A DNA stretch of 30,584 nucleotides. Origin: a virus. Location: positions 1-30,584 of IMG/VR virus record IMGVR_UViG_3300033145_000224; one strand, 5' to 3'. Positions 4,206 through 12,435 of this stretch are shown here, in pieces; positions within the stretch are counted from its first letter, which is position 1, and the number at the start of each line of letters is the position of its first letter. A program made the translations under genes and the position numbers. The notes under the pieces were generated by a model, which worked only from the letters and a program-made list of their open reading frames with translations, had not been told where the DNA came from and ran no database searches.

Positions 4206-6859
4206 GCCAAGTCTCCACCACAAATCCAAACATTTGTATCTATCTTAGTAACCGAGACAATCGCATACTGTCCCGCAGTGTCTAGCAACGCACCCCTAGA
4301 ACTCAACGTCACCCCACCTTCTGGTACAAGAGTCACAATCCCCGCACCATTCTGTGAGATGAGAACGTTTGTACCAATTGCCAACGCAACATCAGCATTA
4401 ACAGGAATCGTAACGTCAATTGCTCCTGCATTAGTGCACGTTACTATCTTTCCTCTGTCTGCAAGAACCAACTCATAAGCAGTTCCAACCTGATTGTTTA
4501 CACCGATCGTACCTGTCGAAGAAAGATCTATTGTTCCCGCACCACCTGTAACTTCTATCGAACCATCTGCCGATGCTACAGTCGCAAAGACTGGATCAGC
4601 TCCAGTACTGCCAACAAGCACTTGCCCATTTGTTCCAACTGCCAATGCCGTGATAGCCGAAACTCCTGAACCAACCAGCACCCCATGATCAGTAAGCGTA
4701 GACGCACCCGTTCCTCCATTATCAACAATCAAATCATTAGTGAGCGTTAAATCATCAATGATTACGTGACCTGTTCCTTTTGCAGTTATATTTATATCTA
4801 TATTTGCATCAGTACCATCTGCGATAAGAGACGTGCCAGCTAACGTTACAGCTGCTGCCGCCACATTAGTATCAAACGTTGTAGCATTAACAGTAGTTGC
4901 ATTAAGAGTTGTTAGTGCACCAGTTACACTCCATGTTGGATCTGCTCCAGTGTTACCTATGAGCATTTCTCCAGTTGCTCCAACTCCAAGCGCTGTAACA
5001 GCCGCAGCCGTGCCAGAGCCAACAAGCAGGCCATGATCTGTCTGAGTTCCTAGTTTTGCTTTAAGCGATGTAGGGACTATCGCACGAACAGCGTCTGTAC
5101 CATCAACCGCTTCTGCATCCGTGGCTAATTCAACTACACCATCCTGCGTTTCAGTTGCATCTGTTCCCTCAATAACTAATGTTCCAGCACCTCCAGTAAC
5201 TGTAAGAGATCCATCTGTAGAAGTTATACTTCCAACTGTAGGATCAGCCCCTGCAGAACCTATAATTAATTCTCCATTACCTGCAACAGCAAGTGAAATG
5301 ATTGGCGTGCCAGTACCCTGTCCAATCAGAACCGCATGATCCGTTGTTGTCTTACCCCACTCATCAATAGTATCTAGTGCTACCTGAACTGTTGTATCTG
5401 TAACACTTAGAATTCCATCAAAGTTAGCCGTATTAGTAATGATAAGCGCAGCATCACTAGATCCAGCACCACCAGAAGTAGCGTTTATTACAGTAGCCTT
5501 CTCAATAATTACATCAACTATAGTGTTAATTGACTGCTGGTAGATTATGAATCCAAGCTGAGCTAACTCTAACCTTGCCAACTCTGCTGTTGCAACTTGA
5601 GTTGCATTACCAGCAACTACTAACTGAGCCGACGCCAAGTTATTATATTCTGCATCATCAAGTACTGCCCAGTACGTTGGCGTAGCGACAGTTAAATTAT
5701 CTTTAGATACATAAAGAGTATAAATAACAAACTTGTTTCCAGCTGGAGCAGTAGGCGTTCCAGCACTGTTCCAGAAACCATTAAACGTATCCGACGACTG
5801 GTACGTAGCCCACTTGCCAGCACCATTTGTATACATCTGCTTCCACACCTCTGGCACACCACCACCATCAGGAATGTCTGTGTAAAGACCGTGATCCGAC
5901 AGATCGTCAGCACCAACCATCTCTACTTTCTGAGTTCCATTAAGAGTAATGTTGGCACCCTGGTTATGGTTTTCTATTACAGTGCCTATTGTTTCATGCA
6001 AATAGTAAGAAATAGCCTGCAGGAAATCGTATGGATGGTTTTCTTTAACCGTGTACTGAATATTAGTACCCGTAGAATCACGTAAGCACTCAAAGAGAAC
6101 TATGTAATCATCAAATGTTGCCTGTGAGTAAGTTGTTGTTTTTCCTATAGTACCGGTATCATCAATGTAAATCAGATAAGTATTTCCAGCAGTCATGCCA
6201 GTTACTGTTTGAGAAGCTGTCCATGCAACTAGAACACTTTTTATATACCCCGTTCCAGGACGTAGTAACTCAAAGTCACCAAGAACAGTGTCATCAAAAT
6301 AGTTCCCAGCACCTCCCCATGTAGCAAACCCAGAAAAGGTTGTTAACGCTGCAGTTGCAGTAACCATACCACTCGCATCTGATATTAAGCCACCGTCTGT
6401 TATAGTCGTAAATTCAACCGTTCCACCAACATCTAAGTTAGTACCAGCACTTACTGTAGTAGCAAAGTCACCTGCTCCTAGAAGAGAAACAATGTCACCA
6501 GTATCACTTCGTATATCATCATTAGCTGTAAGAAAACCCGCAAGAGTTACATCATCATCCAATACAACGGTAAGCGTATTAACAGCACCCGTTGTATTTA
6601 TATTTGTACCACCCAAAACATTTAGATCACCCGCTGCGTCTGGAACCGCCGTCCCCGCATCTGTAATATATGAATCTGTAAGCACACTGTCATGAGAAAT
6701 AGTCAGAGTACTTGTACCTGGGTTGCCAGTAACCGTTATGCCACCACCACCAAGTATATCTATATTATTAGTTGTAGGTCCTACCGCACCCCCTGCATCA
6801 CCAGTCAATGTCTGAAGCACACAAAGTAGATTAGGTATAAATTGTCCTGATTGACTCAT
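4202..6859 (-). CDS. Long modular tail fibre protein
   Basis: This 885-residue protein is rich in Gly, Thr, Ala, Val and Asp and built from beta-type modules. Residues 15-175 are repeats such as INTTGAVNTLTVVL. Residues ~180-460 form a non-repetitive domain with GYIKSVLVAWTASQTVTG and YTLYVSKDNLTV. Residues 480-500 carry TTVQVALDTIDEW. Residues ~505-780 hold three modules opening DHGVLVGSG and continuing into GSTGADP and TVTGGAGT. Between them, residues ~565-600 carry TQDGVVELATDAEAVDGTDA, a repeat style known from many phage side-tail fibres. The last ~95 residues resemble a common fibre C-terminal domain ending VWICGGDLA. AAGGAGA lies five bases before the ATG. There is no signal peptide. 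A fibre identity is well supported; the receptor is unknown. Confidence 0.8.
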   Translation of the reverse strand: MSQSGQFIPNLLCVLQTLTGDAGGAVGPTTNNIDILGGGGITVTGNPGTSTLTISHDSVLTDSYITDAGTAVPDAAGDLNVLGGTNINTTGAVNTLTVVLDDDVTLAGFLTANDDIRSDTGDIVSLLGAGDFATTVSAGTNLDVGGTVEFTTITDGGLISDASGMVTATAALTTFSGFATWGGAGNYFDDTVLGDFELLRPGTGYIKSVLVAWTASQTVTGMTAGNTYLIYIDDTGTIGKTTTYSQATFDDYIVLFECLRDSTGTNIQYTVKENHPYDFLQAISYYLHETIGTVIENHNQGANITLNGTQKVEMVGADDLSDHGLYTDIPDGGGVPEVWKQMYTNGAGKWATYQSSDTFNGFWNSAGTPTAPAGNKFVIYTLYVSKDNLTVATPTYWAVLDDAEYNNLASAQLVVAGNATQVATAELARLELAQLGFIIYQQSINTIVDVIIEKATVINATSGGAGSSDAALIITNTANFDGILSVTDTTVQVALDTIDEWGKTTTDHAVLIGQGTGTPIISLAVAGNGELIIGSAGADPTVGSITSTDGSLTVTGGAGTLVIEGTDATETQDGVVELATDAEAVDGTDAVRAIVPTSLKAKLGTQTDHGLLVGSGTAAAVTALGVGATGEMLIGNTGADPTWSVTGALTTLNATTVNATTFDTNVAAAAVTLAGTSLIADGTDANIDINITAKGTGHVIIDDLTLTNDLIVDNGGTGASTLTDHGVLVGSGVSAITALAVGTNGQVLVGSTGADPVFATVASADGSIEVTGGAGTIDLSSTGTIGVNNQVGTAYELVLADRGKIVTCTNAGAIDVTIPVNADVALAIGTNVLISQNGAGIVTLVPEGGVTLSSRGALLDTAGQYAIVSVTKIDTNVWICGGDLA

Positions 6860-10765: not shown

Positions 10766-10797
10766 GTCACCACAACTGTATCAAAGTGACACAGTTG
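10766..10797. repeat. Inverted repeat in the divergent intergenic region
   Basis: CAACTGT and ACAGTTG form a 7-bp inverted repeat separated by 11 bases, inside the 175-base gap between the minus-strand fibre gene and the plus-strand HNH cassette. It could be an operator or stem affecting transcription of the fibre gene. No convincing minus-strand promoter could be assigned here. Confidence 0.4.
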
Positions 10798-10821
10798 AAG
10801 GCCAATTGTTTAGTAGGTTTG

Positions 10822-10850
10822 TTGACAAGGAAGATGAACGATGATACGAT
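10822..10850 (+). promoter_or_regulatory. Sigma70-type promoter P1 for the HNH cassette
   Basis: A perfect TTGACA -35 box (10822-10827) is followed by a 17-base spacer and a TACGAT -10 box (10845-10850). The spacer contains the direct repeat GATGA-AC-GATGA. An almost identical promoter lies at 11816-11844. Transcription would start near 10857, about 52 bases before the HNH gene. The two matches to consensus and exact spacing make this a strong call. Confidence 0.8.
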
Positions 10851-10864
10851 ATTTACATGTAGAA

Positions 10865-10912
10865 ATGGGCGTTTGGTCGATTATTTGGGATAACTTTTTA
10901 AGGCAAAGATGA
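10865..10912 (+). CDS. Possible 15-codon leader peptide before the HNH gene
   Basis: An ATG at 10865 opens a short frame (MGVWSIIWDNFLRQR) whose TGA overlaps the HNH start codon as ATGA. It would begin only about 8 bases after the predicted transcription start and has no clear ribosome binding site, so it may be untranslated or weakly translated. If used, it would couple translation of the nuclease to its own. The exact overlap is what makes it worth recording. Confidence 0.3.
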   Translation: MGVWSIIWDNFLRQR

Positions 10913-11370
10913 ATATTACTGAAAAGATACGTAGAAAGATCATTAAAACACTTGCTAAGTACAGGTCGTTTTCCAGCACAAGCAAATGCTTTGGGTGGAC
11001 AGGCACAGTTCGAGAAAAGAGGAATCCTTCTATATACATTAATGGAAGCGGTATAGGTGCCCACAGGGCTGCGTGGATACTAAGCCACGGTAAAATACCT
11101 GAAAATAAATTCGTAAGACACTCGTGCGACAATCCAATATGCACCAATCCAGACCATCTTTACCTATCTGATAAACGACGAAACGTTAGATCTACATATA
11201 AAAGAGTAGGCAGAGAAAGACTTTCCGTTGACCTGCCGATTGAATTAGTAACAAATATTAAGAAGATGGCTGACAAATATAACCAGACTGTAACGAAATA
11301 CGTGCTAAAGAGACTAAGTGAGGCCATAGAATACGAAAAGAATATAGACAAAGAGAACCCTTTAAAATAA
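10909..11370 (+). CDS. HNH endonuclease with C-terminal ribbon-helix-helix-like segment
   Basis: This 153-residue protein is a probable free-standing phage nuclease. Residues ~25-95 follow the HNH_3-type pattern: SKCFGWTGT, then AHRAAWILSHGKIPENK, VRHSCDNPICTNPDHL and a later KRRNVRS. Likely metal and catalytic residues are H71, N80, H83 and N92. C73 and C78 are the usual cysteines of the CDNPxC motif. Residues ~103-142 (RLSVDLPIEL followed by two predicted helices, with QTVTKYVLKRLSEAI) look like an Arc/CopG-type ribbon-helix-helix segment, which could add specific DNA binding or autoregulation. An AAGG site precedes the ATG. It runs against the late genes under promoter P1. The HNH call is firm; the RHH call is moderate. 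Confidence 0.82.
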   Translation: MNITEKIRRKIIKTLAKYRSFSSTSKCFGWTGTVREKRNPSIYINGSGIGAHRAAWILSHGKIPENKFVRHSCDNPICTNPDHLYLSDKRRNVRSTYKRVGRERLSVDLPIELVTNIKKMADKYNQTVTKYVLKRLSEAIEYEKNIDKENPLK

Positions 11371-11383
11371 AAAAGCGCACAGA

Positions 11384-11803
11384 ATGAACACAAAAACAAT
11401 CAAGATGTCTAGAAAAGAGATTATTCAGGCCCAGAAAGAATACAAAAAGTGGACTGAAAACATGGATGACGAGATTCCAAACTTAGTAAATAAGCACATC
11501 GAGGACTTAGTATTAGTTATTCATGGTTATGAAAGTCAAATTGAAAAATATGGAAGGGAAGCATGCCTCAAATGGGATATGAATGCGTGGATTACATACT
11601 CATTATGCAACTTCTTGGCTCTTAAGTTCAGAAAATGCTTAATTAAAATGTGGGACAAAGAATACCCAGTTCACCTTGAAGAAAGCTTGAAAGGATCAAA
11701 TAAACTTTTACTTTATAAGTATAAATATGACTTTGGTAAAAGAGCAAAAATCTTCGATGATCCAAATTATAAAAGTGAGGACTACCACGCTTTTAGCAAG
11801 TAA
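11384..11803 (+). CDS. Unknown charged protein in the HNH cassette
   Basis: This encodes 139 residues, rich in lysine, glutamate and aromatic residues (KEYKKWTENMDDEIPN, KWDMNAWITYSLCN, LLLYKYKYDFGKRAK). It is predicted mainly helical and soluble. No motif or family is recognised. It starts 13 bases after the HNH gene and has no clear Shine-Dalgarno sequence; a second in-frame ATG at 11405 is no better. It probably relies on the upstream transcript from P1. Promoter P2 begins 12 bases after its stop. It may be an accessory gene carried with the nuclease; function unknown. Confidence 0.55.
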   Translation: MNTKTIKMSRKEIIQAQKEYKKWTENMDDEIPNLVNKHIEDLVLVIHGYESQIEKYGREACLKWDMNAWITYSLCNFLALKFRKCLIKMWDKEYPVHLEESLKGSNKLLLYKYKYDFGKRAKIFDDPNYKSEDYHAFSK

Positions 11804-11815
11804 TTTTGCCCCTTG

Positions 11816-11844
11816 TTGACAAGGACGATGAACGATGATATGAT
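11816..11844 (+). promoter_or_regulatory. Sigma70-type promoter P2, near-identical to P1
   Basis: TTGACA (11816-11821), a 17-base spacer and TATGAT (11839-11844) form a near-consensus promoter. The region from TTGTTGACAAGG through the -10 box differs from P1 at only two positions and keeps the GATGA-AC-GATGA element in the spacer. Transcription would start near 11851, before the exported protein gene. Confidence 0.82.
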
Positions 11845-11904
11845 AGTATAGTTAGGTTATATTTTAAAACGCGCCCGGGGGGGTGCCAAAGAAAGGGACA
11901 TACT

Positions 11905-12384
11905 ATGAATGTCTTAAAGAAACATATATTGCTTGTTGCGCTGCTAACCACTTTATCAGGACATAGAGTAGTTGCATCACAGGTAGGCAACTCATGGCTA
12001 ACTGGTGCTATGGATACAGCTACATCTCTTGGAGAGAAAGCTCTTCCTGCACTTGGAACCATAGGCGCTATCGCCGCATCAACCGTGATTCCTTATGGCC
12101 TAGGACCAATTGCAACAGTTGCCGCACCATATCTCATTGCAGCAGGCGCCAACTACATAACAAAGAAGGTGTCTGGTGTTGATATAGCTGAAGTAAAATA
12201 CAGAGAAGATCTCAAAGAGGAAGTTAAACAATTAACTGAGACGATGAGACGTAACGACAAAAGATATTTACGAACAATGAAAAAAATGAGAAAACTTCAC
12301 AAAGCAAGAAGACTTCGAAAAATGAAACATCTAGAAGATGAAGAAAACGAAACCGAAGAAGACGATTTTAATTTTATAATCTAA
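11905..12384 (+). CDS. Exported or membrane-associated basic protein, function unknown
   Basis: This 159-residue protein begins with a good signal peptide: basic NVLKKH, hydrophobic ILLVALLTTLSG and a likely cleavage near VVAS/Q. Residues ~45-85 form a small-residue-rich hydrophobic region (LGTIGAIAASTVIPYGLGPI then ATVAAPYLIAAGA) that could insert in or associate with a membrane. Residues ~95-140 are a long basic helix or coiled coil (MKKMRKLHKARRLRKMK), and the last 20 residues are strongly acidic. It has its own promoter and terminator. An AGGGA site precedes the ATG behind a GC-rich leader (11871-11886). A superinfection, cell-envelope or lysis role is conceivable, but none is demonstrated. 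Confidence 0.65.
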   Translation: MNVLKKHILLVALLTTLSGHRVVASQVGNSWLTGAMDTATSLGEKALPALGTIGAIAASTVIPYGLGPIATVAAPYLIAAGANYITKKVSGVDIAEVKYREDLKEEVKQLTETMRRNDKRYLRTMKKMRKLHKARRLRKMKHLEDEENETEEDDFNFII

Positions 12385-12404
12385 CAAAACACCTTGGGTA
12401 TATT

Positions 12405-12435
12405 AGGGAGGCGTGCATGTTCGTCTCCCTTTTTT
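12405..12435 (+). terminator. Intrinsic terminator of the plus-strand cassette
   Basis: AGGGAGGCG (12405-12413) pairs with CGTCTCCCT (12422-12430) around an 8-base loop, with one G-U pair, and is followed by TTTTTT on the plus strand. It lies 21 bases after the stop of the exported protein gene. On the minus strand the stem lacks a following T-run, so it should act mainly on the plus-strand cassette. Confidence 0.85.

Follow-up and report, generated by a model that had tools for sequence, protein, structure and literature searches.

The gene cassette at positions 10822-12430 of the window, which is the whole 30,584-base viral contig analyzed here, is best explained as a small, separately controlled block set in reverse within the structural gene region of a podovirus-like phage, with a probability of about 0.7 for this reading as a whole. 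The product of its first gene joins an HNH nuclease domain to a ribbon-helix-helix (RHH) tail. With the same probability, this tail, judged from the sequences compared, would bind 7-bp repeats (heptads) in tandem within two promoters, P1 and P2, and repress both. The fusion protein probably switches off its own gene together with the gene for a secreted protein.

Layout of the cassette and its promoter pair

The minus strand of the window carries the genes for a P22-like portal, a major head protein and the tail. In the opposite orientation, flanked by a repeat-rich gene of 781 aa and a gene of 1010 aa, lies the cassette, which has all of the following features on the plus strand. P1 (10822-10850; TTGACA-N17-TACGAT with an extended -10 TG) drives the HNH-RHH fusion gene (P0001, 10909-11370, 153 aa) and P0002 (11384-11803, 139 aa), a second open reading frame of the P1 operon without known family. 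P2 (11816-11844; TTGACA-N17-TATGAT, also with an extended -10 TG) drives the predicted exported-protein gene (P0003, 11905-12384, 159 aa). The cassette ends in an intrinsic-terminator-like hairpin with a T run (12405-12430), detected by a terminator scan whose overall count was not above that of shuffles. Between P1 and the divergent gene on the minus strand is an inverted repeat (CAACTGT..ACAGTTG, 10771-10797). A nucleotide search with the whole cassette gave no match among 50,697 phage records, and an Rfam search of the cassette gave no family above its gathering score.

Among sigma-70-type matches in the region, P1 and P2 rank as the best two, each with a 17-bp spacer. The extended tracts at 10819-10850 (TTGTTGACAAGGAAGATGAACGATGATACGAT) and 11813-11844 (TTGTTGACAAGGACGATGAACGATGATATGAT) agree at 30 of 32 positions and differ by an A/C in the spacer and a C/T in the -10 box, which confirms the near-identical pair of strong promoters reported in a preliminary description of this DNA. 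The element is the longest direct repeat of the cassette, and shuffles gave an expectation of 0 for a repeat of this type. A search through the full 30.6-kb contig returned P1 and P2 and no third copy, and the 32-nt element was absent from every other IMG/VR viral contig searched.

Searches with the HNH-RHH protein, its RHH tail and P0003 converged on five more viral contigs (L007, L008, L012, L091 and L093). In all five, the block adjoins a repeat-rich gene and contains an HNH-RHH gene and a P0003 relative, and the six contigs share the reverse-oriented order P1, HNH-RHH gene, P2, exported-protein gene. One promoter precedes the first cassette gene of each contig and another precedes the P0003 relative. 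All 12 promoters consist of TTGACA, a 17-bp spacer and TANNNT, and nearly all have an extended -10. The pattern TTGACA-N13-RTGNTANNNT occurs genome-wide in exactly two copies (P1 and P2) in five contigs; L093 has one exact copy and a single-mismatch copy at P1. A general phage promoter family, the reading that the preliminary description had set against a shared operator, was rejected: the element comes twice per contig in the six related phages, and heptad pairs are found essentially only at P1 and P2. L012 also has an inverted repeat (CTAGGACTTT..AAAGTCCTAG, 5350-5385) between the divergent minus-strand gene and P1. L012 and L114 (3300024432_000059 and _000546) come from one metagenome, overlap in coding sequence and look like pieces of one phage.

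Transcript leaders show no same-genome likeness between P1 and P2 (15.0 against 14.9) and are orthologous by promoter across genomes, scoring 26.5 for P1-P1, 53.5 for P2-P2 and about 15 for P1-P2. This orthology indicates that the two promoters are old. The P2 leader of the window contains a short hairpin with a G run (GCGCCC GGGG GGGUGC, 11871-11886), and such a hairpin is predicted just 5' of the exported-gene start in all six contigs. By visual comparison its pairs change compensatorily, with A-U in place of G-U in L007 and another stem in L008, and the shuffle z-scores for its folding are weak.

P0003 has, by our reading of its sequence, a signal-like N-terminal segment, a Gly/Ala-rich hydrophobic segment and a charged tail, and looks exported. 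No relatives of P0003 were found in the 50,697 phage records. P0003 and HNH-RHH occur in exactly the same six contigs, and scans with P0003 found no genome that has it without HNH-RHH. The position of P0002 is taken in the relatives by other genes or none. The companions of HNH-RHH in the P1 operons are exported small proteins (four contigs), a gene of 80 aa (two contigs), an HTH_3 protein (one contig) and, in the window, P0002. No gene but HNH-RHH is found in all six P1 operons, and since the other genes vary by genome it is the only common candidate regulator. No tyrosine integrase was found in nine contigs examined, which may be incomplete, so the reading of a conversion gene expressed from a prophage is without support.

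The HNH-RHH protein and its relatives

The nuclease half matches the HNH_3 profile at residues 50-94 with 45.2 bits against a cut-off of 24.8, and H71 and N80 are the catalytic residues in the window protein. The catalytic His and Asn and the zinc ligands are conserved in five of the six proteins. In the sixth (L091:4750-5232), a Lys is aligned with the catalytic His (IHKSC versus VRHSC), which suggests that this HNH active site was lost or shifted. Foldseek matched the nuclease half to I-PpoI and I-HmuI with the weak E-values of a short domain. Relatives of the HNH on genome contigs gave matches in the HNH part only.

The tail (11209-11340, about residues 101-149) matches the Arc-like repressor family phrog_582 in a profile search. 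Its predicted structure is a strand (RERLSVDLP, annotated with the preceding G) followed by helices at 111-123 and 128-149, a strand-helix-helix unit of about 45 residues with an alternating polar strand. Foldseek superimposed the tail on Arc, AmrZ and CopG at 0.7-2.1 Å over 35-40 residues with probabilities of 0.5-0.9; the E-values of about 2-5 are poor because the RHH domain is short, but the tail fits these folds closely in geometry. The profile and fold matches support the RHH-like tail that had been proposed for this gene. A Pfam search of the tail gave no RHH family at its cut-off, a PDB sequence profile search gave no RHH chain except for a weak antitoxin match, and tblastn with the tail alone gave no match in phage records. 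Arc of P22 and CopG are small repressors that bind inside promoters. The window protein resembles them in the fold of its tail; their operator layouts differ, and neither is fused to a nuclease.

Conservation over the six proteins is 65% in the RHH region and 46% in the HNH region, and the RHH strand is 90% identical. This presumed base-contacting strand is near-identical although the operators differ, so the protein would have to tolerate several heptads.

A plain free-standing homing endonuclease that uses its RHH tail to choose the cut target, next to promoters that are ordinary strong ones, is an unlikely alternative. HNH genes are common in phages, and the HNH_3 match, the I-PpoI/I-HmuI-like domain and the catalytic residues kept in 5/6 proteins are all consistent with it. 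The core and the zinc-type Cys/His pattern are shared with free-standing phage HNH endonucleases (phrog_1872, HNH_3, I-HmuI and I-PpoI-like), but the well-matching proteins of cultured phages that were inspected end in HTH-like tails, not RHH. L091 lost the aligned catalytic His, conservation is higher in the RHH half of the protein, and the cassette promoters are essentially the only places with operator pairs, all of which speak against this alternative.

Three distant contigs have a stand-alone Arc-like RHH gene of 53-61 aa, with a phrog_582 match, as the first gene of a block at the same site (L096:4117-4302; L116:12779-12949, minus strand; L117:10820-11005, minus strand). These genes head blocks of small exported or membrane genes. 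TACTAG repeats lie within the presumed promoter spacer of L117. A regulator that was already resident probably acquired an HNH domain. A more tentative extension, possible but doubtful, is that the local RHH repressor captured an HNH nuclease, that the fusion is now chiefly a dedicated autoregulator of the exported-protein block with two-heptad operators drifting along in both promoters, and that at least one lineage (L091) lost the nuclease site and kept the regulator.

Tandem heptads in the promoter spacers

The putative operators of the window lie in the spacers of P1 (O1, 10830-10843, GAAGATG AACGATG) and P2 (O2, 11824-11837, GACGATG AACGATG), and they are the only two such sites in the contig. 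O2 can also be read in another register as ACGATGA twice. The GATGA-AC-GATGA element of the preliminary description is present, though a division into two direct repeats of 7 bp, GAMGATG AACGATG, describes it better. Across the 12 spacers from the six contigs, self-similarity appears at a lag of 7 and at no other (0.575 against 0.293, p = 0.0002), as measured with columns permuted jointly so that relatedness was kept. The heptads fall in a single register at spacer positions 3-9 and 10-16 with a consensus of about RRYAATR, and the second heptad ends in the extended -10 TG. Heptad symmetry is weak (2-3 of 7 matches) in L091 P2, L012 P1 and L093 P1. Matches to a contig's own operator 14-mers with at most 2 mismatches number 2-4 per contig and include P1 and P2 every time.

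Spacer identity between P1 and P2 is 13.5/17 within a genome. Between genomes it falls to 8.8 for P1 with P2, 8.1 for P1-P1 and 9.7 for P2-P2 pairs. Relabeling the genomes gave 2 of 720 permutations as good as the true pairing. The excess comes mainly from three genomes at 16/17 each; the other three score 12, 11 and 10 against 7-11 across genomes, and the signal is unclear from these alone. A spacer that is genome-specific, repeated at both promoters and periodic at 7 bp over the six-phage set supports, at the level of sequence, the shared operator suggested earlier.

Recent duplication of P1 and P2, or gene conversion that keeps them alike without a shared binding protein, is rather improbable as the source of this likeness. 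Near-identical tracts of 25-33 nt in three genomes speak for it, as does L007, where part of the -35 region is found a second time next to P1, but the orthologous leaders mark the promoters as old. Likeness within a genome spans the base before the -35 to spacer position 16 and stops there, leaving out the variable -10 bases. Even in genomes whose P1 and P2 have drifted apart, the 7-bp period is retained; L012 P2 and L093 P2 are the clearest cases. Old promoters with only the spacer matched within each genome fit sites read by one protein.

The omega (ParB) repressor of plasmid pSM19035 is an RHH protein whose binding sites, 7-bp direct repeats, overlap several promoters, that of its own gene among them, and it has high affinity for two adjacent direct repeats (PMC9499535). 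The cassette shares with omega an RHH protein, whose binding is here predicted, and adjacent 7-bp repeats over promoters. It differs in having two repeats of about RRYAATR instead of 7-10 repeats of WATCACW per site, and omega, which acts in plasmid partition, lacks a nuclease domain. By analogy, the heptad operator may work like that of omega without being a member of the omega type.

Binding of the spacer repeats by a host regulator or another phage regulator, with each phage matching its own host and so carrying genome-specific shared spacers, has a low probability. Such a regulator would explain why the operators differ among genomes when the RHH strand hardly does, and the P1 operon of L008 includes an extra HTH_3 protein, but this HTH gene is confined to one genome. 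It encodes 160 aa with a coiled-coil-like C-terminal part (L008:7264-7746). HNH-RHH lies between P1 and P2 in 6/6 contigs, stand-alone RHH genes occupy the same place in distant relatives, and a known RHH protein uses 7-bp tandem sites, which together speak against such a regulator.

Proposed control of the cassette

In the mechanism proposed for HNH-RHH, RHH dimers would sit side by side on the two 7-bp direct repeats in the 17-bp spacer, at both P1 and P2, each placing its two-stranded sheet in the major groove as expected of this domain. Protein bound there would exclude RNA polymerase at both promoters, since the second repeat reaches into the extended -10 TG. The HNH-RHH protein would thereby limit its own synthesis and, in parallel, that of the exported-protein operon behind P2. 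We infer repression because the putative site lies inside the promoter. Activation of P1 and P2 by the RHH protein has little in its favor: the sites are well positioned to contact polymerase and the sign of regulation is read from their position, but the -35 of both promoters is already perfect and their -10 extended, with the site between the two, and a site between -35 and -10 usually means occlusion.

The HNH half would make the protein a nuclease and autorepressor similar to I-TevI of phage T4, which represses its own transcription through an operator overlapping its promoter (PMC2988022). The likeness lies in a nuclease doubling as autorepressor, which the position of the site suggests here. 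I-TevI is a GIY-YIG enzyme in an intron with other DNA-binding parts; the window protein is free-standing, combines HNH with RHH and would have a second promoter under the same putative operator. The cassette thus appears, by analogy, to combine the omega and I-TevI ways of working and belongs to neither family.

If this reading is true, an HNH-type nuclease also acts in repression, as I-TevI from a different nuclease family is known to do, and an RHH tail is combined with omega-like tandem heptads within the promoter spacer. The six natural operator pairs and the near-constant protein strand form a ready set for studying how RHH proteins tolerate operator drift. The databases searched contained no known relatives of the exported proteins predicted to be co-regulated. 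If a nuclease-derived repressor does control them, this suggests that they must stay low during part of the infection.
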